In this document: piece by piece, positions 15,685-32,469 of the stretch | Layout of the letters: each line of letters opens with the position of its first letter | Numbering within the stretch: position 1 is the stretch's first letter | Source: a bacterium | GTDB taxonomy: Bacteria > Verrucomicrobiota > Kiritimatiellia > RFP12 > UBA1067 | NCBI GenBank assembly: GCA_030537465.1 | Contig: JAUNMP010000013.1 | Coordinates: 1 to 45,456, forward strand | Length of the DNA stretch: 45,456 nucleotides | Direction: 5' to 3' | Position numbers and translations under genes: made by a program | Notes under the pieces: model-generated | What the model saw: the letters and a program-made list of their open reading frames with translations, nothing else | What the model was told of the DNA's origin: nothing | Databases searched by the model: none

Positions 15685-16968
15685 TCAACCCTGGAACTTC
15701 TCGCGGTTGATCCACAGACCCAGCGCGGGATTGGGGATGAAGTAGATCTCCTCGCCGTCGACGACATTGTAGCCATACTTCAGCTTCGCGGGATCGTATT
15801 TCGCAGCCATCTCGTCGTAGTCGGCGGCCTTGAAGCCCACGCCTTCAACCTCCTCCTTCGTGATGTTCTTCACGCAGTAGGTGATCGAGAAGCGGCCGTC
15901 GGAGGAACCGTGGATCAGATGCGCGGCCGCGCCCATGTTCGCGCGCAGATCCTCGCTCTCGGGCTGGTTGAAGACCTCGAGCGTGTGGAGGCGGCCCTTG
16001 TAGCCGTACTTGCGGATGAGGCCGTCGACCGCCTTGTCCTCGCCAAACTGGTGAACGCCCGGCGCGAGGACGATGAGCTCGCCACCATCGGCCATCGCCA
16101 TGCGCGTACGGTAGACGGACTTGTTGCCGAGCCAGGTGGAGGTGAATTCGGACGGATCCAGGTACACCACGCACTTCTTGATGCCGTGCTCGACATAGTC
16201 GATGTTCTTCACCTGGGCGAGCTTAACCGCCTCCGTGAGGCAGTTACGGCCCTCGCCGATGAAGAGCCCGTGGGAATGAATCTTGCCGCCAGGCGCCGTG
16301 TTCACCGTGAGCACCCAGAGAATCGGACGCTGCGCGACGAAATGCTCGAACGCGTAGTCGAAGAGCTGACGCACGGGCGTGTGGTCGCGCCCCATCGCCT
16401 TCTCCATGCCGCACACGGCGCCGATCATGTGGGACTTGTTGATCATGTCGCTGCCGCCCACGCCCACGAAAAGGTTCTTCGCATGGTTGGCCATGCCGAT
16501 CACCTCGTGGGGGACGACCTGTCCGGGCGAAATGATGAGATCGTAGGTCTCATCCATGATACGGCGGTTGACCTCCACGGAAACGGGCTCCTTCCAGAGT
16601 CCGTCGGAGATCTTCGTCACCGCCTCCGCGGGCACCTCGCCCAGCTTGACGACATCCGTGCGCCAGCCATGCACGATCATCTTGTCGTAAGGGATGTCGG
16701 GGAACATGATTTTCCACTGCGACTCGCTCACAGGCACGTGCGTGCCGAGGGCCGGCATCACATCCACCTGGATGCCCCGCGCGGTCAGCAGCTTCCAGTA
16801 CACGCAGGTGATGAAGCCGGCATTGGAGTGGTAGCGCGTGAAGTCCGGCGGAATGATCAGCACCTTCTTGTTGGTGAAAGTGCGCCCTTCAAGGGACTGA
16901 GCAAGCGCGGAAGCGATCTCGTCGTTGGAAAGTCCAGCGTCGGTGGTGGCAGTTTTGAAGATGTCCAT
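15685..16968 (-). CDS. LarA-family nickel-pincer hydroxyacid racemase/epimerase
   Basis: LarA-type enzymes racemise or epimerise alpha-hydroxyacids with the nickel-pincer nucleotide cofactor; known members act on lactate, malate, phenyllactate and D-gluconate/D-mannonate. The 427 residues hold the key positions with the spacing of lactate racemase. H77 is in GTHVP. H154 is in VPHEV. K164, the covalent pincer lysine, lies exactly 10 residues after H154, and H180, the nickel ligand, exactly 26 after. The locus makes mannonate, so a mannonate/gluconate 2-epimerase role is inferred. The ATG at 16968 follows a 7-bp repeat array and has no clear ribosome site; a TTG four codons upstream is possible. 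The lar cofactor genes are not in the window. Confidence 0.85.
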   Translation of the reverse strand: MDIFKTATTDAGLSNDEIASALAQSLEGRTFTNKKVLIIPPDFTRYHSNAGFITCVYWKLLTARGIQVDVMPALGTHVPVSESQWKIMFPDIPYDKMIVHGWRTDVVKLGEVPAEAVTKISDGLWKEPVSVEVNRRIMDETYDLIISPGQVVPHEVIGMANHAKNLFVGVGGSDMINKSHMIGAVCGMEKAMGRDHTPVRQLFDYAFEHFVAQRPILWVLTVNTAPGGKIHSHGLFIGEGRNCLTEAVKLAQVKNIDYVEHGIKKCVVYLDPSEFTSTWLGNKSVYRTRMAMADGGELIVLAPGVHQFGEDKAVDGLIRKYGYKGRLHTLEVFNQPESEDLRANMGAAAHLIHGSSDGRFSITYCVKNITKEEVEGVGFKAADYDEMAAKYDPAKLKYGYNVVDGEEIYFIPNPALGLWINREKFQG

Positions 16969-16972
16969 AGGT

Positions 16973-17014
16973 AAGTTCAAAGTTTAAGGTTCAAAGTTTC
17001 AGGTTCAAGGTTGA
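16973..17014 (+). repeat. 7-bp degenerate tandem repeat (locus B)
   Basis: Six plus-strand units in perfect phase: AAGTTCA, AAGTTTA, AGGTTCA, AAGTTTC, AGGTTCA, AGGTTGA. They fill most of the gap between the lipoprotein stop at 17025 and the LarA-family start at 16968. The orientation is opposite to loci A and C. Confidence 0.85.
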
Positions 17015-22814: not shown

Positions 22815-24085
22815 AGACCAGGGAAGTCGAGCGTCGCGAAGTAATCGTTCAGCGTCTCGGCACGACGGATCATTTTCACCGAACCGTCCTCGCGCAGGAG
22901 AAGCTCCGCGCTGCGGAGCTTGCCGTTGTACTGGAAGCCCATCGCGTAGCCGTGCGCGCCAGCATCGTGCAGCACGAGCAGGTCGCCGGGCTCGACAACG
23001 GGAATCTCGCGCTGAATCGCGAATTTGTCGTTGTTCTCGCAGAGCGAGCCCGTCACGTCGCACAGCATGAGCGGCACCTCGGCCTTCTCCGTGTAGGTCG
23101 TGCCGGCGGGGCCATACTTCGGCACGGAGACGTGGTGGTAGGAACCGTAGAGCGCGGGGCGCATGAGATTCGACATGCAGGAGTCGAGGCCCACATAGGT
23201 GCGATACGTCCGCTTGATGTGGCGCACACGCGAGACGAGGTAGCCGTAGGGCCCCGTGATGCAGCGACCACACTCCATGTAGAGCTTGAGATTGGGGTGG
23301 CCCTTCGCGAGCAGATTCGACTTGTAGGCGGCCTCAATGCCGGCTCCGATGACCTCCAGCGGCTGTGCAACCTGATCCGGCTTGTAGGGGATACCGATAC
23401 CGCCGCCGATGTTGATGAAGTCGAATGTGATGCCGACCTTCTTCGAGATATCCACAACAAGGTCGAAGAGCAACGTGGCCGTATCGATGATGTACTGCGG
23501 GTCAAGCTCGTTGGAAGCAACCATCGTGTGCAGGCCGAAACGCTTCACGCCCTTCGCCTTCATCTGCGCGTAGGCGTCATAGAGCTGTTCGGTGGTGAAG
23601 CCATACTTGGCTTCCTCGGGCTTGCCGATGATCGCGTTGCCGCCCTTGAGCGGACCGGGATTCCAGCGGCAGCACATCAGTTCGGGCAGGGAACCGCACG
23701 CGCGCTCGACCGCCGCGATGTGCGTGATGTCGTCGAGGTTGATGATCGCGCCCAGCTCCCTGGCCTTCTGGAACTCGCAGTCAGGTGTGTCGTTCGACGT
23801 GAACATGATGTCCTCGCCCACATTGCCGACGGCCTGGGCGAGCACGAGCTCGGCCATGGAGGAACAGTCGCTTCCGAAGCCCTCTTCCCGCAGAATCTGC
23901 ATAAGGTGGGGATTGGGCGCCGCCTTCACGGCGAAGTATTCATGGAAACCCTTGTTCCAGGCGAAGGCAGCCTTGAGCCGGCGTGCGTTTGCGCGGATGG
24001 CCTTCTCATCGTAGATGTGGAAGGGCGTGGGGTACTCGCGGGCAATCGCCTCGAGCTGGTCATTCGTAAACGGGAGTGTCTTCAT
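22811..24085 (-). CDS. lysA: Diaminopimelate decarboxylase-type PLP enzyme
   Basis: Fold-type III PLP decarboxylase; the family converts meso-diaminopimelate to lysine. The 424 residues have the PLP lysine K54 in YFAVKAAPNPH, the glycine loop NIGGGIGIPY, the phosphate-binding ECGRCITGP, the substrate cysteine in GSLCENND, and HDAGAHGYAMGFQYNG. These fit diaminopimelate decarboxylase, though the ECGR form and the operon context leave room for a related carboxy-amino-acid decarboxylase. The start overlaps the ferredoxin-DUF1893 stop (ATGA), and its own stop overlaps the DUF4838 start in the same way. Confidence 0.85.
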   Translation of the reverse strand: MKTLPFTNDQLEAIAREYPTPFHIYDEKAIRANARRLKAAFAWNKGFHEYFAVKAAPNPHLMQILREEGFGSDCSSMAELVLAQAVGNVGEDIMFTSNDTPDCEFQKARELGAIINLDDITHIAAVERACGSLPELMCCRWNPGPLKGGNAIIGKPEEAKYGFTTEQLYDAYAQMKAKGVKRFGLHTMVASNELDPQYIIDTATLLFDLVVDISKKVGITFDFINIGGGIGIPYKPDQVAQPLEVIGAGIEAAYKSNLLAKGHPNLKLYMECGRCITGPYGYLVSRVRHIKRTYRTYVGLDSCMSNLMRPALYGSYHHVSVPKYGPAGTTYTEKAEVPLMLCDVTGSLCENNDKFAIQREIPVVEPGDLLVLHDAGAHGYAMGFQYNGKLRSAELLLREDGSVKMIRRAETLNDYFATLDFPGL

Positions 24086-25200
24086 TTTGATTCAGCTTTC
24101 TTGTCCTTCAAATTCTTTTCCTTGGCGGCCTTGCGGAGCTGCTTGAGCTTGGCGCGGATTGCCTTGAGCATGGCGGGGACCTTGTCAAGATCCTTCACGG
24201 ACATTTCCAGAGGACAGAGTCCAGACTTGTCGCGATTGAGGATCTGCGGAACCATCTTGTCCGCCGAGCACGCGATGCCGTATTCCTTCAGAAGGTCTCG
24301 TCCCGGCTCGCACATCAGCGCCGCATGGACGCGCTTGACGCCAAACGAAACGCAGATGGCCGCCGCTGCCTTGCCAATCACCTTGTCGACCACCCAAGCA
24401 CCCTTCACGTCCTCGGGATTGCGATCACAGAGCGTAAGCAGGGGAGAGAGTCCGCGTCCGTTCCCGAGCGTGGCGATCACGCCGTCCTTCACCAGCACCA
24501 CCGCCGCCTCATTCGCGGCGAAAAGCCGTCTCGTCTCCGCCAGAATATCCTCATCGCCCATCGGCTTCACCTCCCGGTGTACTTCAAGCCCCTTCACCGT
24601 CATCGCCGGCAGCGGCCGCGCCGCGCACAGATGCTCGCATGCACCGCAACCGATGCATTTCATCCTGTCGACCGCCGGCACCTTCGGCGCCGAGGGGTCG
24701 TTCTCGACCGTGGACACCATGTAGATCGCATGCACGGGGCAATGACGCGCGCAGGCGTCGCAGGGCACTCCCTCGGTCGCCGCCAGACAGCGGTCCTGAT
24801 GCCAGACCGCATACCCAGCGTGGATGTTACGCTTGCGCGCCGGCGTCACTGGGCGGATCGCCCCCGTGGGACACACCTCGCCACACGTCGTGCACTCGGG
24901 GCGACAGTAGCCGTGTTCAAAGCCCATCTCCGGCTGCAGGGCGCGCTTGGGGTCCCGTGATGCCCGAAGCACGTGATTCGGGCACTGCTGCACACAGAGC
25001 TGGCATCCCACGCACTTGAGCTTGAAATTGTCGAGGCTACCCGCACCTGGCGGTACAACCGGCGTTTCGCGATCGGGCACTCCAGGAGGCAATACAGATG
25101 CCACGCCTCCGTCAAAGACCTTCTCCTCGTCTGTCGCCAATACCACGCCCGCGGCCAATCCCGCACCGACCAGAAACCCCCTGCGATTCACTTCGACCAT
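24082..25200 (-). CDS. Tat-exported NapG-like 4x[4Fe-4S] ferredoxin fused to DUF1893
   Basis: A 372-residue predicted electron carrier. A Tat signal (NRRGFLVGAG, residues 5-14) leads into four [4Fe-4S] sites in the NapG/MauM arrangement. The cysteines are 63/66/69/73, a second set around 99-110 (CTTCGEVCP), 138/147/150/154, and 182/185/188/192. Residues of about 233-345 form a DUF1893 domain (VLVKDGVIATL, WVVDKVIGKAAA, ILNRDKSGLCPLE), a deaminase-like fold of unknown role. The tail is lysine-rich. NapG proteins take electrons from membrane NapH, and a NapH-like gene lies directly upstream, overlapping by 13 bases. The fusion is unusual. The final acceptor is unknown. Confidence 0.82.
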   Translation of the reverse strand: MVEVNRRGFLVGAGLAAGVVLATDEEKVFDGGVASVLPPGVPDRETPVVPPGAGSLDNFKLKCVGCQLCVQQCPNHVLRASRDPKRALQPEMGFEHGYCRPECTTCGEVCPTGAIRPVTPARKRNIHAGYAVWHQDRCLAATEGVPCDACARHCPVHAIYMVSTVENDPSAPKVPAVDRMKCIGCGACEHLCAARPLPAMTVKGLEVHREVKPMGDEDILAETRRLFAANEAAVVLVKDGVIATLGNGRGLSPLLTLCDRNPEDVKGAWVVDKVIGKAAAAICVSFGVKRVHAALMCEPGRDLLKEYGIACSADKMVPQILNRDKSGLCPLEMSVKDLDKVPAMLKAIRAKLKQLRKAAKEKNLKDKKAESK

Positions 25201-26024
25201 GTGAGAGCTCCCTTCCCGCAGACCGCGCCACAGTCGAAGCACGCCACGCACTTCGAACGATCGATCGTCCCGTTCGCGACATCGATGCACTGCGCCTTGC
25301 ATGCGCGGGCGCAGAGTCCGCACTTCACGCACTTCGACGAATCGATCACCGGCTTCGTCAACGACACCTTGGACGCGTAGCCCAGCAGCGTCCCCACCGG
25401 ACACACCGCGTTGCACCAGAGGCGCCCCTTCCACACCGCCAGCACCGCGACAAGCGCGAGAACGCCCGCGGACACCACGATCACCGTCGTCGCGGGCATA
25501 ACGACCTCCACCGCATGGAAGGCGTAGCTCGCATGGCGCTCCGCCCACTCGGCAAGCTCGTTGTTTCCAAGGCGGACGAGAGGTGCGAGCAGAGCGGATG
25601 CGGCGCGGCCGTAGATCGCATAGGGCTCCAGCCACTGGAAGTGCAGACCCAGAAAACCTCCCCCCAGGAAGATTGCCGCAAGGGAACCGCGGAGGCATTC
25701 GCGGACAACGCGGGTCTTCGAGGTCTCAGCCTCAGCAGAGAACCTGAAGCCGAAGAGTCGACGGAAGAAGATCAACACGTCCTGGAAGATTCCAAGCGGA
25801 CAGACCACCGAGCAGTAAACGCGGCCGAAAAGCAGCGTGCAGGCGAGAACCGAGGCGATCGTCGCCAGAGACAACGCGAGGATTGATGGCCAGAACTGGA
25901 GTTTCGCCGTCCAGCCGAACCAGGCCGCGGCCGTGCCCGTGAAGTCCAGGAACACCGCGGTGAGCGCCAGCAGCGAAAACGCCGCAAGGGCGATGCGAAG
26001 ACGTCTGAGATTACGCACGGCCAT
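25188..26024 (-). CDS. NapH-like membrane polyferredoxin
   Basis: An inner-membrane iron-sulfur protein of about 278 residues with four to six transmembrane helices. The two CxxxCP motifs typical of NapH/CcoG-type proteins (YCSVVCPLGIFQD, WCNAVCPVGTLLG) follow membrane segments. The C-terminus carries two [4Fe-4S] sites (CVKCGLCARAC and CVACFDCGAVC). NapH proteins oxidise quinol and pass electrons to NapG. The gene overlaps both neighbours (14 and 13 bases). The start is uncertain: the ATG at 26024 is very close to AGGAGG, while a GTG at 26018 has ideal spacing. No nitrate reductase genes are present. Confidence 0.83.
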   Translation of the reverse strand: MAVRNLRRLRIALAAFSLLALTAVFLDFTGTAAAWFGWTAKLQFWPSILALSLATIASVLACTLLFGRVYCSVVCPLGIFQDVLIFFRRLFGFRFSAEAETSKTRVVRECLRGSLAAIFLGGGFLGLHFQWLEPYAIYGRAASALLAPLVRLGNNELAEWAERHASYAFHAVEVVMPATTVIVVSAGVLALVAVLAVWKGRLWCNAVCPVGTLLGYASKVSLTKPVIDSSKCVKCGLCARACKAQCIDVANGTIDRSKCVACFDCGAVCGKGALTWSK

Positions 26025-27342
26025 TCCTCCTGAGTTTCTCGACGAAGGCATCCACCTTGCGAATCATCGCCGGAATGTCGATGGACTGCGGACAGTGCGG
26101 CGCGCAGCGTCCACACCCCGTGCAGCGTTCTGCACGGCGGAGCTTGGGGATGGCACGCTCGTAATCGATGAGAAACCGGCGACGACGCTCCGCATAGTCG
26201 GGATCGGACGGATCGTCCGGCATACGGTCCTCGGTGAGCGCCGTGTTCCAGCAGGCGAAGAGACCGGGGATGTCGAGCCCGTAGGGACAGGGCATGCAGT
26301 AGTCGCAGCCCGTGCAGGGAATCGAGTCATCGCTCAGAAAGGCGCGCGCCGCGCGCTCAAGCGCAAGTTTCTCCTTGTCGTCCAGCGGCTTCAGCGGCGA
26401 GTAGGTCTTGACGTTCTCTTCTATGTGCTCAAGGTACGTCATACCGCTCAGCACGGTGAGGACGCCGGGGGGCGAGCCCGCGAAACGGAAGGACCAGTTG
26501 GCAGGCGTGGCCGCCGCATCAATCGGCGTGAGCTTGCGCTGCACGTTGTAGTTGAACTTCGCGAGGCGGCCTCCGAGCAACGGCTCCATCACCACCACGG
26601 GGATGTTCCTCTCGGCGCAGAGATTGTAGAGCGTCTCGGCATTCACGTTACGGGGATTGACCTCCTTCGCGTGGTGCCAGTCCACGAAGTTGAGCTGAAT
26701 CTGCACGAAGTCCCAGTGCACCCTGTCGTGCATTTCGAGCGCATGGCGAAACACCGCCTCACTGCCGTGGAACGAGAAGCCCAGATTGCGGATACGACCT
26801 GCTTCGCGCTCCTTCATCAGGAAGTCGAGCATGCCGTTGTCGATGAACCGTGCGTTGAAGAGCTTCATCGCATCCTTGCCGCCCCCGCCGATCGAGTGGA
26901 GCAGATAGAAGTCGATGTGGTCCGTGCGCAGCAGGCGGAAGGACTCCTCGTACATGCCCTTCGCGGCCTCAAACGGGTGGAACTTCGCGTTGAAGTTCGA
27001 AAGCTTGGTCGCAACCAACCACTTGTCGCGGGGATGCTTCGCGAGGCAATCGCCCAGCACCTTCTCGGATTCGCCGCGGCAGTAGACCGGAGACGTGTCG
27101 AAGTAGTTCACGCCGTGTTCGATGCAGTAATCGATCTGGCGCTGGACCTGCGGGAGGGCGATCGGCGCATTGGACCCGCCACGGTTCGTGTTGGCGTGGC
27201 TGCCGTCGATCGTGGGATAACGCATGGCCCCAAAGCCCAGCAGACTCACCTGCTCACCGTGCCCCCCCCGCCGTGTCGTGATGCCGGCGGGAGCTGAGAC
27301 GGGAGGATTCACCAACGATGCGAAGAAGGCCCTGCGGTTCAT
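26011..27342 (-). CDS. Tat-type aldo/keto reductase with C-terminal ferredoxin domain
   Basis: A 443-residue protein. A short twin-arginine start (MNRRAFFASL) precedes an aldo/keto reductase barrel with the full catalytic set D82, Y87, K113 and H149. The C-terminal part has two [4Fe-4S] sites (CTGCDYCMPCPYGLDIP and CTGCGRCAPHCPQSIDIP). Such fusions are common in anaerobes, but their substrates are mostly unknown. The NAD(P)H-binding barrel is hard to reconcile with export, so the Tat reading needs caution because the hydrophobic part is short. The ATG at 27342 lies 2 bases behind the ligase stop; a TTG two codons earlier is less likely. It forms a module with the two genes after it. Confidence 0.83.
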   Translation of the reverse strand: MNRRAFFASLVNPPVSAPAGITTRRGGHGEQVSLLGFGAMRYPTIDGSHANTNRGGSNAPIALPQVQRQIDYCIEHGVNYFDTSPVYCRGESEKVLGDCLAKHPRDKWLVATKLSNFNAKFHPFEAAKGMYEESFRLLRTDHIDFYLLHSIGGGGKDAMKLFNARFIDNGMLDFLMKEREAGRIRNLGFSFHGSEAVFRHALEMHDRVHWDFVQIQLNFVDWHHAKEVNPRNVNAETLYNLCAERNIPVVVMEPLLGGRLAKFNYNVQRKLTPIDAAATPANWSFRFAGSPPGVLTVLSGMTYLEHIEENVKTYSPLKPLDDKEKLALERAARAFLSDDSIPCTGCDYCMPCPYGLDIPGLFACWNTALTEDRMPDDPSDPDYAERRRRFLIDYERAIPKLRRAERCTGCGRCAPHCPQSIDIPAMIRKVDAFVEKLRRNGRA

Positions 27343-27344
27343 GG

Positions 27345-28886
27345 TCAACGCCCTTCCGAGACTTCACGCGGGATGTAGCCCTCGGCACAGGCCAGAGACA
27401 CGAGGAACATCGAGAGCACCGAGGCACTTCGCATCGGGCAGTCGCCACAAGCGTGAATGATCAACGCAAGGTCGCCTATGAGAATCCAGAACGCCCCGGC
27501 AGGCAGGCAGTAGATCGCGCGCGGCCGCGGCGGAGCCTTGTCCGCCTTCATGAAGCGCGCAGCACGATAGAGTCGATACCAGTCACGGAAGACCGGATAG
27601 ACCAACGCCAGGACGATGCACAACAGCAGGAACGCGCCGATTGCGCCATGTTCGCAGAGGAACTGCAGGTGGTCATTGTGAACGTTGGCACCACCCACTG
27701 TCTGCAGCTGCTTCAATTCGTCATCCTGCAGATAGGAGAGGCAGAAATGCTTGTAGCCCCAACCTCCAACGCCGAAGAACGGATAGTCCTTGAAGATCGC
27801 AGCCGCGACGCGCGTGTGGTACTGGGCCTTGCCGGACACACGGTCCAAGACGCCAAACGAATCAATCGTCGCGAGTTCCTTGTTGAGATCAGGCGGTGCG
27901 AAGACCGAGACGAGCAGCAGGAAGAACAGCGCCCCACCCAGCGCGAACGCGGCATGCCGCACCCGACGCGCACGCTCGTGGCGCGAAAACAGCAGAGACA
28001 GGACGTAGTAGACAAAGGCCGAACCGGCGAGAACAAACAGGCACATCAACGCGGCACGACTGAGCGTGCACAGCACGCCGAAGAAGATCAGCGTGGCCGG
28101 GATGAGCGGATAGTGCGCACGCAGCCAGCGGTTCAGGGCCTGCTCCTTCAAGGACATCGTCTTGTCGACCTTGGGCAGCGCCGCAACTTCAGCCACTCGG
28201 TGCTGCCACACTCCGATCGCAAACGCAAAAGCCATCACGAAGAAGGCTCCGGCCATGTTCGGATAGGAGAAGACAGAGAAGAAATGAACCTTCAGCGGCA
28301 CTTTGCCCCAGAGCGGCGCCACAGCTCCGCTTCCCTGCTGAATGAACCCTAGTACGGCCAGTGCCGCCGCGTTCCACACCAGCATCTCCATCAACACCCG
28401 CTTGCCCTGGCGAGAGAGCGAATGCTTCGCCGCCAGCATCCCCATGAACGCCGGCAGGAACCAGAGAAGCACCGTAAAATGCTCCTGCAAGTTCACGCAG
28501 AACGGCGCAAACGGCACCGGCGGCTTGGCAACATCCTCAACGGGCAGTCCCGTGGCTGAGGCGATCTTCATGATCTGCGGATAGTCGCACGCCAGGCAAA
28601 GGCCATGGTTCACGAACGGAACAAGAAGCACAAGCAGGAAGAGCAGCGTGAAATAGAAGAGTGGGTCCCGACGGAGACCACGCCAGGAACGCCGACGTGC
28701 AGAGACGGCATCCTCAAATGGACGACGCTGCGGGAAGAACAGCATTCCCTCGAAGAGGAACGCGAGCAACCACGGAAGCGTCGGCAGGAGAGAATCTGCT
28801 CGCAAACCTCCGCAGAGCCACGCGCATGCGGCGATCGCGAGGAAGACAAGCAAGACCGCCAGGTTTCTGAAGAGCACATCAATCAT
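27345..28886 (-). CDS. O-antigen ligase/polymerase-like membrane protein (paralogue 1)
   Basis: A 513-residue membrane protein with about 10-12 hydrophobic segments and the Wzy_C signature in a large loop: RVSGKAQYHTRVAAAIFKDY, GVGGWGYKHF and NVHNDHLQFLCEHG. Family members join O-antigen or other glycans to lipid A, or polymerise glycan units, on the periplasmic face. It is clearly a paralogue of 38272-39789. Both have CxxCD and PFC cysteine motifs before the third third of the protein and GDCP near the C-terminus. It starts 3 bases behind ispG. The glycan it handles is unknown. Confidence 0.82.
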   Translation of the reverse strand: MIDVLFRNLAVLLVFLAIAACAWLCGGLRADSLLPTLPWLLAFLFEGMLFFPQRRPFEDAVSARRRSWRGLRRDPLFYFTLLFLLVLLVPFVNHGLCLACDYPQIMKIASATGLPVEDVAKPPVPFAPFCVNLQEHFTVLLWFLPAFMGMLAAKHSLSRQGKRVLMEMLVWNAAALAVLGFIQQGSGAVAPLWGKVPLKVHFFSVFSYPNMAGAFFVMAFAFAIGVWQHRVAEVAALPKVDKTMSLKEQALNRWLRAHYPLIPATLIFFGVLCTLSRAALMCLFVLAGSAFVYYVLSLLFSRHERARRVRHAAFALGGALFFLLLVSVFAPPDLNKELATIDSFGVLDRVSGKAQYHTRVAAAIFKDYPFFGVGGWGYKHFCLSYLQDDELKQLQTVGGANVHNDHLQFLCEHGAIGAFLLLCIVLALVYPVFRDWYRLYRAARFMKADKAPPRPRAIYCLPAGAFWILIGDLALIIHACGDCPMRSASVLSMFLVSLACAEGYIPREVSEGR

Positions 28887-28889
28887 GTT

Positions 28890-29981
28890 TCACCCTTTCA
28901 CTGCATCACAACCAAGATTCCGCACGACCGCAAGAACGGACTCAACGGCCTCCGTCGGCGCGACCTTGCCGGTCGGCTGCCCCCGGACATAAAGGAGGAA
29001 TTCCCCTTCGCCGCCACAAAGCGCGACATCGGCATCCCGTGCTTCACCTGGACCATTCACGGCGCACCCCATCACGGCGACACGCGGAAGAACCAATCCT
29101 GGAGTCTGGCGTAGAAGACGGTCTAGAGCCTGCTCCACCTCTACGGCAATCGTGCGAACGTCCACCTTTGTACGCCCACAGGTGGGGCAGCTCGTCACCG
29201 AGGCCCCCGATGCACGCAGTCCAAGCGCGCGCAGGATCTCGAGTCCGACCTTCACCTCGCGCTCAGGGGCATCCGTGAGCGACACGCGGATCGTGTCGCC
29301 AACCCCCTCCGCGAGCAGAATGCCGAGTGCGACGCTTGACCGAACCGTGCCCGGCACAAAGGTCCCTGCTTCTGTCACACCGAGATGCAACGGACAATCT
29401 GTCCGTTCCGCGAGCAGACGATAGGCCGCAAGCGTCCGCGGGACATCGCTTGCCTTCACCGAGACGGCGATGTCCTGAAAACCCTCGTCCTCCAGCAACC
29501 GCACATGCCGAAGCGCACTCTCCACGAGGGCCTCGGCCGTGGCGGAACCATATTTAGCAAGCACGTCCCGTTCCAGGGAACCTCCGTTCACACCCACGCG
29601 GATCGGAATGCCCTTCTCCTTCGCCGCCCGCGCGACGGCCTGCACGTTGGCGCAGCCACCGATGTTTCCAGGATTGAGACGAAGGGCATCGGCCCCCGCC
29701 TCGATCGACGCAAGGGCGCAGCGGTAGTCGAAGTGGATGTCTGCCACCAACGGCACTGGACTCCGCCGACGGACTTCACCCAAAATACGCGCAGCCTCAA
29801 GATCCGGCACTGTGAGCCGGACGAGATCTGCCCCCGCCTCGGCACAGCGAAGGACCTGTACCGCCAACGCCTCGGCATCATGTGGATCTGCCGTCGTCAT
29901 CGTCTGCACGGAGACAGGCGCACCGCCCCCCAGGAGCAGTGAGCCGATCCTCAGCTGACGAGTCTGGGCGCGAACGGTCAT
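28890..29981 (-). CDS. ispG: 4-hydroxy-3-methylbut-2-enyl diphosphate synthase
   Basis: The iron-sulfur enzyme of the penultimate MEP isoprenoid step, converting MEcPP to HMBPP. The 363 residues have the barrel start VSVQTMTTADPHD, VADIHFDYR and LRLNPGNIGG. The [4Fe-4S] ligands are C265 and C268 in SCPTCGRTKVD and C306 with a glutamate in MGCAVNGPGEA. The length is typical of the short bacterial form. The start overlaps the rseP stop as ATGA. Its electrons must come from a ferredoxin or flavodoxin. Confidence 0.97.
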   Translation of the reverse strand: MTVRAQTRQLRIGSLLLGGGAPVSVQTMTTADPHDAEALAVQVLRCAEAGADLVRLTVPDLEAARILGEVRRRSPVPLVADIHFDYRCALASIEAGADALRLNPGNIGGCANVQAVARAAKEKGIPIRVGVNGGSLERDVLAKYGSATAEALVESALRHVRLLEDEGFQDIAVSVKASDVPRTLAAYRLLAERTDCPLHLGVTEAGTFVPGTVRSSVALGILLAEGVGDTIRVSLTDAPEREVKVGLEILRALGLRASGASVTSCPTCGRTKVDVRTIAVEVEQALDRLLRQTPGLVLPRVAVMGCAVNGPGEARDADVALCGGEGEFLLYVRGQPTGKVAPTEAVESVLAVVRNLGCDAVKG

Positions 29982-31405
29982 TTGTTCTTCAAGTCAAAGG
30001 CGGGACGGAAGTTCTTGATTGCCTGATACCTCTGCTCCAACTTCTGCAAAGCCCGTTCGTGTCGGTCCGTTGCCGCACTGATCCGCACACCACGGTTAAC
30101 GTCGCGAAACACCAAGAAGATCATCAGACCGAGGAACAGAAACATAAAGCCCATCGAAAGACCGTCGACAAACTTCTTCGGAGGCTTGCAACGGAAGAGA
30201 AGCTCGAAGAGAGCGAAGAGGATGAGTCCTCCATCTAGCACGGGAATCGGCAGCAGATTGAGGATCGCGAGGTTCACGTCGACGAAGCGGAGGAATCCGA
30301 AGGCATCCCAGATGTTTCGCCGCACCTGCTTGTAGAGCACCTGGGCGATCATCACCGGACCACCAAGCGCCCCGGCGACGGCCTTCGTCTCCTTGGGAGT
30401 CACCAATCCTTTAAGGACGCGGAAGATCTGCCCCGCGTCACACTTGAGCTGTTCCACGGGGCTGCGGGCCGGCATCCACGAGGACGCGGCCTCCAGGCGC
30501 ATCGACTCAAAGCCGACAAGCGGACGCCCCGCCTCCGCATCGAATTCCGCGGAGAGCTTCAGCGTGAGGTTCGTGCCGCCACGCAGCACCCCCAGATCCA
30601 GCTCGCCCGCGCCGCGCCGCTTGATTTCCGCGCGCATCTCCGCGAACGTCTCGACCTTCACGTCACCAACCGACGTGATCAGGTCGCCCGTCAGCAGCCC
30701 CGCGCGCTCGGCCGGTTTCCCCGCGACCACTTCGCCGACATAGGGCGCGTAGGAAGCCTCGGCATCCAGCAGATAGGCGTCCAGCACCTCGCTGTGCGCC
30801 GCCGTCATGAGATTCGTCACCTCGACGCCGCCGCGACGGACCACGACCGGCACCTCGCGCCCCCCCGTCAGCGCGACGGCAACGGCGACATCGTTCCAGG
30901 CCCGCACCTCCTGTCCATCCACCGAGAGCACGCGGTCGCCCTCCTGAAGTCCCCCCTTCTCCGCCTGCCCTCCGGGAACCGTGATCCCGACGACAGGCGG
31001 CACCTCGCCAAACCGCGCACCGGGAGCGACCGAGAGCACAAGCGCGAGCACCACGGCCAGAACGATGTTGCCGAAGGGCCCCGCGAACGCGACGACGATG
31101 CGCTTCCAGGCACTGATCTCCTGGAGCGTCTCCCCCTTCTCCGTCCCTCCCTGAAGCGCATCCGTGCCCTCGGGGTCCAGCTGCGGCAATGCCACATATC
31201 CGCCAAACGGAATCGCGGAGAAACGGTATTCGACACCCCCGATCGTCTTCTTCCAGAGGGCGGGGCCAAAACCAATCGAAAAGCGGTCCACGCGAAGTCC
31301 AAGAATCCGGGCAGCAAGGAAGTGACCGAACTCGTGGATGAAGACCGCAAACGAGAAGAGGAACACGCAGGCGACGATGGCGAGAACTGTAATCAGGATT
31401 TCCAT
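29978..31405 (-). CDS. rseP: Site-2 intramembrane zinc metalloprotease RseP
   Basis: A 475-residue inner-membrane protease that cuts anti-sigma factors and signal-peptide remnants within the membrane. The zinc motif HEFGH lies at residues 24-28 of the first helix, and the third ligand lies in NLLPIPVLDGG near the C-terminus. Two PDZ domains occupy the periplasmic middle (GGQAEKGGLQEGDRVLSVDG and GKPAERAGLLTGDLI). The ATG at 31405 overlaps the dxr end by 13 bases. The dxr-rseP order is common in bacteria. Confidence 0.95.
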   Translation of the reverse strand: MEILITVLAIVACVFLFSFAVFIHEFGHFLAARILGLRVDRFSIGFGPALWKKTIGGVEYRFSAIPFGGYVALPQLDPEGTDALQGGTEKGETLQEISAWKRIVVAFAGPFGNIVLAVVLALVLSVAPGARFGEVPPVVGITVPGGQAEKGGLQEGDRVLSVDGQEVRAWNDVAVAVALTGGREVPVVVRRGGVEVTNLMTAAHSEVLDAYLLDAEASYAPYVGEVVAGKPAERAGLLTGDLITSVGDVKVETFAEMRAEIKRRGAGELDLGVLRGGTNLTLKLSAEFDAEAGRPLVGFESMRLEAASSWMPARSPVEQLKCDAGQIFRVLKGLVTPKETKAVAGALGGPVMIAQVLYKQVRRNIWDAFGFLRFVDVNLAILNLLPIPVLDGGLILFALFELLFRCKPPKKFVDGLSMGFMFLFLGLMIFLVFRDVNRGVRISAATDRHERALQKLEQRYQAIKNFRPAFDLKNK

Positions 31406-32469
31406 TCTTGAGCAAACCTTCTTGCGGCCGCATCGGCGGCCAGGATGTTGTGGACCGAATCGCACGGGAGATCGGGCGACTCGAGGACCGCGGCCTCGAC
31501 GAGGCGCGGAATGTCAGTAAAGCGGATGTGCCCCGCAAGGAACCGCGAGACGGCGACTTCGTCCGCCGCGCTGAGCGCCGCGGGTTTCACGCCTCCCTCT
31601 CGAGAAACGTCCTTCACCAGGCGCAGACAGGGGAATCGAACCTCGTCGATCCGACGGAACGTAAGCGCCCCCAGGGCGACAAGGTCCAGCGGACGGCGTT
31701 CGGCCGCCAGACGGTCGGGCCAGGAAAGCGCATACTGGATCGGCACACGCATATCGGGCGGGGAGAGCTGGGCAAGCGTCGCGCCATCCGTGAACGTCAC
31801 GAGCGAATGGACGACTGACTCGGGATGCACCACGACGTCGACGCGGTCCGGAGGGATGCCAAAGAAGGCACTCGCCTCCAGAATCTCGAAGCCCTTGTTC
31901 ATCATCGTGGCGGAATCGACCGTCACCTTGGGCCCCATCTTCCACCGCGGGTGGCGCAAAGCCTGCTGCGGCGTGACGGCGTCAAGCTTCGTCGGGCCAT
32001 CAAGGAAAGGTCCGCCGCTGGCCGTCAGCGTGAGACGGGCGATTTCCTGCTCGCCCCGCCCCTGAAGACACTGGAAGATCGCGGAGTGTTCGCTGTCGAC
32101 CGGAATCAGGCGCGCCCCCGACGCGCGCGCGTAGGAAAGGACGAGGGCACCCGCCGCCACCATCACCTCTTTTGTGGCGAGCGCGACGTCTATGCCCTTC
32201 TTCAGCGCGGAAAGTGTCGGCGCGAGCCCCGAAAGCCCAACCGTGGCGACAAGAACCAGGTCCGCCTCCGTCTCCTCGACGGCACGCACCGCGGCATCCT
32301 CGCCACAGTAGACCCTCGCGTTGAATTCCCGACCAAGCCGTTCGGCCTGCACCTGTCTCGAACGAGCCGCCAGCGCGACGATGCGAAACGCCTCCGGGTG
32401 CGTACGAACCACATCGCACACACTCGAACCAATGGAGCCCGTGGCACCCAGAAGGACGATTCGTTTCAA
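31393..32469 (-). CDS. dxr: 1-deoxy-D-xylulose 5-phosphate reductoisomerase
   Basis: The committed step of the MEP pathway, converting DXP to MEP with NADPH. The NADPH motif GATGSIGSS lies at residues 8-16. Metal and substrate residues are in VDSEHSAIFQCL, SGGPF, HPRWKMG, DSATMMNKGFEILEA and HPESVVHS. At 358 residues it is at the short end for the family. The start is a TTG at 32469, chosen because MKRIVLLGATGSIG is the usual N-terminus and GAGGCGG lies upstream. No in-frame ATG is suitable. Confidence 0.96.
   Translation of the reverse strand: MKRIVLLGATGSIGSSVCDVVRTHPEAFRIVALAARSRQVQAERLGREFNARVYCGEDAAVRAVEETEADLVLVATVGLSGLAPTLSALKKGIDVALATKEVMVAAGALVLSYARASGARLIPVDSEHSAIFQCLQGRGEQEIARLTLTASGGPFLDGPTKLDAVTPQQALRHPRWKMGPKVTVDSATMMNKGFEILEASAFFGIPPDRVDVVVHPESVVHSLVTFTDGATLAQLSPPDMRVPIQYALSWPDRLAAERRPLDLVALGALTFRRIDEVRFPCLRLVKDVSREGGVKPAALSAADEVAVSRFLAGHIRFTDIPRLVEAAVLESPDLPCDSVHNILAADAAARRFAQEWKS

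Follow-up and report, generated by a model that had tools for sequence, protein, structure and literature searches.

An aldo/keto reductase-ferredoxin, NapGH-like proteins and DUF1893 form a conserved gene set in Kiritimatiellae and Bacteroidales

We examined a 45,456-nucleotide stretch of bacterial DNA (contig JAUNMP010000013.1 of GenBank assembly GCA_030537465.1, from a gut or rumen member of the Kiritimatiellia, Verrucomicrobiota), hereafter the window, and focused on three adjoining genes that encode an aldo/keto reductase (AKR) with a ferredoxin domain, a NapH-like membrane protein and a NapG-like polyferredoxin fused to a DUF1893 domain. We found that this gene set is a conserved unit in two phyla and that DUF1893 is a true component of it. 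The parts are known ones; their combination is real and conserved, and we found no earlier description of it. A literature search found no paper on an AKR together with NapHG. Our preferred interpretation, to which we give about an even chance, is that it encodes a quinol-linked NapGH-type relay dedicated to the AKR-ferredoxin.

Results

Three overlapping genes for iron-sulfur proteins

An earlier reading made from the letters alone (the sequence-only reading) had described the three genes, and Pfam confirmed its coordinates and domains exactly (Table 1). A motif scan bore out its counts of [4Fe-4S] sites (two in the AKR, two in NapH and four in NapG) and the two CxxxCP motifs of NapH. The AKR carries CTGCDYCMPC at 343 and CTGCGRCAPHC at 407. 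The NapH-like protein has CVKCGLCARAC at 232 and CVACFDCGAVC at 259 together with CSVVCP at 71 and CNAVCP at 204, and the NapG part has its four sites at 63, 99, 138 and 182. In the fusion protein, the match to PF08973 (E 2.7e-34) covers residues 225-351, and the part before it, to about residue 224, resembles NapG. The reported overlaps of 13-14 bases also held: NapH and NapG share 13 bases (25188-25200), and AKR and NapH share 14 with ATG 26024 as the NapH start, or 8 with an alternative GTG (26018) that is better spaced behind AGGAGG. As had been claimed, no nitrate reductase was present among the scanned main open reading frames of the window, although NapA was not searched genome-wide. 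Both Nap-like proteins missed the curated family cut-offs, with 53.2 bits vs 213 for TIGR02163 (NapH) and, for NapG, 69.6 vs 269 bits for NF007012 and 65.4 vs 178.85 for TIGR00397. We conclude that the system falls outside the curated NapG/NapH families, with scores well below cut-off, yet probably works like them.

The catalytic tetrad of the AKR (D82, Y87, K113, H149) and all eight of its cluster cysteines were invariant in 43 sequences, including a paralog that is 37% identical. An AlphaFold2 model of the AKR (pLDDT 86.5, pTM 0.79) had L-galactose dehydrogenases as its closest solved folds (7smi: Z 28.6, root-mean-square deviation (rmsd) 3.0, 283 residues aligned). NAD(P)-dependent AKRs were matched over residues 19-338; the barrel spans residues ~20-338, and the C-terminal ~100 residues with the clusters are extra.

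The gene set is conserved in two phyla

The sequence-only reading had proposed searching other genomes for the same gene order, and a scan of genome contigs found it (loci are numbered with L and genomes with G; G000 is the window's own genome, 91% complete). The same cassette with the NapG-DUF1893 fusion is present at Kiritimatiellae loci L008-L012 and L021, where identity to the window is 77-80% for the AKR, 63-65% for the NapG part and 55-56% for DUF1893; L013 and L014 have the cassette without DUF1893. The metagenome-assembled genomes bearing the cassette are labeled Kiritimatiellae or Lentisphaerae, and several come from rumen or omasum. At the Bacteroidales loci L015-L020 the order is rearranged to NapH, NapG, AKR. 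There, NapH and NapG form a single reading frame of ~490-515 codons, followed by the AKR and, in many genomes, by a separate DUF1893 gene. Bacteroides finegoldii TSDC17.2 from the human gut has the order NapHG-AKR-DUF1893-S component, and Parabacteroides distasonis has two NapHG/AKR pairs adjoining each other. A triple fusion of NapH, NapG and DUF1893 was found in L022 (6323-8155), L023 (6380-8140) and L024 (5578-7182), with a reduced C-terminal two-cluster domain in NapH and a neighboring AKR that has no signal. The window's genome itself holds a second cassette (L136, contig C129, 4563-7378), made of an AKR and a fused NapH-NapG; this AKR is 37% identical to that of the window and has a hydrophobic, Tat-like (twin-arginine translocation) N-terminus.

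Two trivial explanations were rejected. Chance adjacency of the three genes does not fit their conservation in two phyla, their overlaps and the fusions, and a sequencing artefact joining NapG to DUF1893 does not fit the recurrence of the same fusion in L008-L012, L021-L024, L032 and L033. AKR relatives also occur in the phage records MT837815 (54% identical), MT837962 (31%) and MT838848 (29%), which are short "Bacteriophage sp." entries without annotation, obtained from human faeces, and may be bacterial contamination.

DUF1893 is a component of the module

Among 198 Bacteroidales genomes, 31 carried the strong, AKR-type NapG (E below 1e-50), 19 carried DUF1893 and 17 carried both (Fisher p = 2.5e-14, a value that overstates the evidence because the genomes are related). 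The two genes lay within ~2 kb of each other in 10 genomes. Fusions point the same way: DUF1893 is attached to the C-terminus of NapG in Kiritimatiellae, to the C-terminus of an AKR with a Tat-lipoprotein signal in L114 and to the C-terminus of a DUF362 lipoprotein in L138, and three genomes have an odd in-frame fusion in which it precedes the signal peptide of a TonB receptor (L118:5279-7558, L120:5218-7668, L131:6556-8844). Because DUF1893 co-occurs with the NapG type and is fused to NapG, AKR, DUF362 and a TonB receptor, we conclude that it is a true component of the module. The extra domain noted earlier on NapG is therefore real, but it is not a peculiarity of NapG, being one of four DUF1893 fusion types in the module.

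In a model of the fusion, the DUF1893 domain superposed on TM1506 (1vk9) with Z 19.1 and rmsd 2.2 over 136 aligned residues. The next matches, tied among themselves at Z ~10, were FdhD, cytidine deaminases, PurH and RibD. The zinc motifs of deaminases (H/C-x-E, PCxxC) were not conserved in 30 DUF1893 sequences, in which only DKxxG, AA and CPxE stand out. This model had pLDDT 83 and pTM 0.56, so its relative domain placement is not reliable. In our literature search, DUF1893/TM1506 turned up only in one review, which states, citing Iyer 2011, that the T. maritima TM1506 protein auto-ADP-ribosylates (PMC8946771).

A proposed electron relay and its direction

In nitrate respiration, NapGH oxidizes quinol to supply a reductase, and NapH-NapG fusions are dual Sec-Tat proteins whose NapG part is periplasmic (PMC5449189). 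NapH-like proteins also serve as modules paired with other extracytosolic oxidoreductases (PMC8238504). The quinol-linked transfer put forward in the sequence-only reading, which would cross the membrane, fits the homology of NapH and NapG and this known Sec-Tat topology (PMC5449189). In the relay that we propose, NapH would draw electrons at the membrane from the quinol pool, the presumed donor, and the four clusters of NapG would pass them on. The double-cluster tail of the AKR may serve as docking and transfer partner for NapG, and the barrel would exchange hydride with a small carbonyl or alcohol, both its direction and its substrate being conjectural. DUF1893, whose fold is deaminase-like but zinc-less, would be the fourth subunit, probably with a binding or accessory role at the AKR/NapG end.

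AKRs normally depend on cytosolic NAD(P)H. Because the periplasm holds no free NAD(P)H, an exported AKR would presumably bind NAD(P) before Tat export. Such loading would resemble that of glucose-fructose oxidoreductase (PMC6708511, which cites Halbig 1999). Most Bacteroidales AKRs begin with RRxFLK, a hydrophobic stretch and a lipobox-like Cys, that is, a Tat-lipoprotein signal (e.g. MDNINRRDFLKIAGTAAAVTAVAASCG), and are thus predicted to leave the cytoplasm folded via Tat and to be lipid-anchored in the periplasm. Since they would be periplasmic and often lie beside a TonB receptor and an ECF-like (energy-coupling factor) S component, they most likely act on an imported molecule, modifying a small compound or cofactor.

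In the window, the NapG part has a Tat signal (MVEVNRRGFLVGAGLAAGVVLA; NRRGFLVGAGLAAGVVLA) with a proper h-region (RRGFLVGAGLAAGVVLA), the most hydrophobic among the signals compared, and TatC is present in the genome. The window AKR keeps the twin-arginine motif NRRAFF in its N-terminus (MNRRAFFASLVNPP) but has only ~7 hydrophobic residues before NPP and no h-region, and its own export is therefore conjectural. The protein may go out by hitchhiking on NapG or may stay inside. Of the earlier description of a Tat-type AKR in a possibly periplasmic system, then, the motif stands and most Bacteroidales relatives have the signal, but the window protein lacks a convincing h-region and the AKRs of L022-L024 lack any signal.

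The missing h-region is one of several observations that weigh against the relay or its extracytoplasmic setting. In the nearest Kiritimatiellae AKRs, proline-rich or charged residues come after RRxFF or RRxFL, with no hydrophobic stretch, and the L022-L024 proteins show no N-terminal signal whatever. Judged from predicted signals, the NapG, AKR and DUF362 fusions would place DUF1893 outside the cytoplasm; the TonB fusions conflict with this, as a domain before the signal peptide would stay cytoplasmic, and so do the standalone Bacteroidales DUF1893 proteins, in which no signal peptide was seen. No flavin that could bridge one-electron clusters and a two-electron hydride is visible. UbiA-type prenyltransferases are present in the window's genome but are unspecific, and MqnA of the futalosine menaquinone pathway is absent from that genome, in which the classical pathway was not searched; the quinone is therefore only presumed. 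Finally, NapG was not found in the same-genus genome G078 (97% complete).

The main rival on location draws on the same AKRs. It holds that only in Bacteroidales does the AKR have a periplasmic role; the AKR of the window's lineage would be an NAD(P)H enzyme of the cytoplasm, in contact with NapH on that side of the membrane alone, and its RR motif would be a leftover. Besides the close Kiritimatiellae AKRs without an h-region, the L022-L024 AKRs agree with it, since they have no signal despite sharing an operon with a NapH-NapG-DUF1893 fusion. However, the twin-arginine motif is kept across much divergence in most Kiritimatiellae AKRs, the L136 AKR with its hydrophobic Tat-like N-terminus accompanies a fused NapHG in the same genome, and hitchhiking on NapG would export an AKR that has no signal of its own. 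We judge this rival somewhat unlikely.

The main rival on function reverses the chain: the AKR would be a dehydrogenase oxidizing an alcohol or sugar, and the quinone pool would receive electrons from its clusters by way of NapG and then NapH. An ethanol oxidase is another known partner of NapH-like proteins (PMC8238504), and the L-galactose dehydrogenase folds closest to the AKR are in line with such a role, whereas NapGH itself is a quinol dehydrogenase serving a reductase (PMC5449189). Nothing in the sequence fixes the direction, and we consider the reversed chain unlikely.

Uptake genes and LarBCE around related modules

At Bacteroidales loci that carry the proposed relay, genes for a TonB receptor, a DUF362 protein, an ECF-like S component and TatC are often present as well; these counts are lower bounds, as the simple gene caller took the opposite-strand frame at L116, L117 and L142. 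The name "ECF-like S component" is tentative, given to a small membrane protein with a PF12822 match at E 5e-4, below cut-off, and a seven-sequence profile of it found no match among solved structures that would indicate the substrate.

A different set of neighbors concerns LarBCE. The Kiritimatiellae genome G134 has a LarE-LarB-LarC-AKR-NapHG operon (L122:7745-13138), and LarC adjoins the AKR in G149 and G163. Bacteroidales also have a second, more distant family of NapHG, immediately preceded by a DUF362 gene; in L154-L160, from seven genomes chosen because their NapG and LarC matches were close together, it has LarC and LarB nearby. Over the 198 Bacteroidales genomes, this second NapG type and LarC were associated (14/23 LarC genomes, Fisher p = 2e-4). 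DUF362 and LarA belong to one Pfam clan, CL0471 (PMC11770544).

These neighborhoods and the shared clan are what favors a reading in which the module serves the nickel-pincer nucleotide cofactor or a relative, by maintaining or using it outside the cytoplasm or by helping its uptake. Against it, LarC (PF01969) had no match in the window's genome (91% complete) and was absent from all 31 Bacteroidales genomes that carry the AKR-type NapG; LarC is also common in the class (152/193), so its neighborhood in three genomes may be incidental. We find this reading improbable. For the same want of LarC in the window's own genome and the Bacteroidales carriers, the idea that LarBCE accompanies the AKR-type module in general was rejected, and the LarBCE link is therefore a lead on the wider NapHG family, not on this copy. 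Mutual exclusion of LarC and DUF1893 was rejected as well, because both are present in G193-G197 and G206.

A broader scheme would unite NapHG, AKR, DUF362 and DUF1893 as an undescribed extracytoplasmic redox family around a nucleotide-type cofactor (the nickel-pincer nucleotide, its relative or pre-loaded NAD(P)), made by LarBCE in some genomes and imported by TonB/ECF in others, with DUF1893 as a carrier or editing domain. As a joint claim, we regard this as quite doubtful.

Neighboring genes in the window

The coordinates of the three genes and their neighbors are collected in Table 1. Two bases separate the end of the Wzy_C gene from the start of the AKR, and the gene is a conserved neighbor in Kiritimatiellae, lying directly upstream of the AKR in L008-L014 and L021 as well. 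From this, one could suppose that the module acts in envelope glycan making, which we consider very unlikely, as no Wzy_C gene lies beside the module at the Bacteroidales loci or in the contexts of G134, G139, G149 and G156. A lysA-like gene downstream shares 4 bases with the NapG-DUF1893 fusion gene. The Wzy-AKR-NapH-NapG run is immediately preceded, on its own strand, by the genes for 1-deoxy-D-xylulose 5-phosphate (DXP) reductoisomerase, a site-2 protease and IspG. Elsewhere in the window, a uronate-use cluster (UxaC, GH115, mannitol dehydrogenase family) includes a gene for a Lar_N (lactate racemase family) protein; no LarC was detected in this genome.

Table 1. Coordinates of the three-gene set and of other features in the window.
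Feature	Position	Strand	Evidence
Aldo/keto reductase (AKR) with C-terminal double [4Fe-4S] domain	26011..27342	-	PF00248 E 1.2e-34; Fer4_9 E 3.8e-8
NapH-like membrane iron-sulfur protein	25188..26024	-	PF12801 Fer4_5 E 4.9e-15; TIGR02163 53.2 bits
NapG-DUF1893 fusion, whole gene	24082..25200	-	Fer4 domains and PF08973
NapG-like polyferredoxin part of fusion	24532..25200	-	NF007012 69.6 bits; TIGR00397 65.4 bits; motifs
DUF1893 (TM1506) part of fusion, C-terminal	24148..24528	-	PF08973 about 118-121 bits (cut-off 27)
Wzy_C O-antigen ligase-like protein	27345..28886	-	PF04932 E 1e-14
IspG	28890..29981	-	
Site-2 protease	29978..31465	-	
DXP reductoisomerase	31393..32469	-	
Lar_N (lactate racemase family) protein	15685..16980	-	Lar_N E 4e-12; best PDB match 4nar "putative uronate isomerase", E 7.5e-23

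Discussion

Each part of the gene set has a known counterpart from which it departs. Like the NapGH of periplasmic nitrate reductase, it has a NapH with two CxxxCP motifs and a tail of two [4Fe-4S] clusters, a NapG with four sites and a Tat signal, and overlapping neighbors; unlike that system, it has an AKR-ferredoxin instead of the nitrate reductase, a DUF1893 domain fused to NapG and scores far below the cut-offs. The Bacteroidales orthologs share the fused architecture of the dual Sec-Tat polyferredoxins, whereas NapH and NapG of the window are separate genes and no AKR partner is named in that paper (PMC5449189). The NapH-like modules of PMC8238504 likewise use NapH to link the quinone pool with an exported enzyme, but they were found via FMN-binding domains; Pfam found no such domain in the AKR, NapH-like or NapG-DUF1893 proteins, and the enzyme here is an AKR. 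The DUF1893 domain scores above the Pfam cut-off and has the fold of TM1506 (PDB 1vk9, 9e9a), and it differs in being fused to NapG here and to AKR, DUF362 or a TonB receptor in other versions of the module. The window AKR resembles AKRs with a C-terminal ferredoxin domain (COG1453 type) in its barrel, full tetrad and two C-terminal [4Fe-4S] sites, but the module AKRs are in an operon with NapHG and most Bacteroidales members have a Tat-lipoprotein signal.

DUF1893 and the NapHG-AKR operon, neither of which has a role assigned in the literature searched, gain a common setting in cultivable gut bacteria, Bacteroides finegoldii and Parabacteroides distasonis among them. The finding raises the question of how an NAD(P)H-type AKR works when it is exported and wired to iron-sulfur clusters. 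Further, the wider link of NapHG to LarBCE and to the LarA-related DUF362 could bear on further enzymes of the nickel-pincer cofactor.

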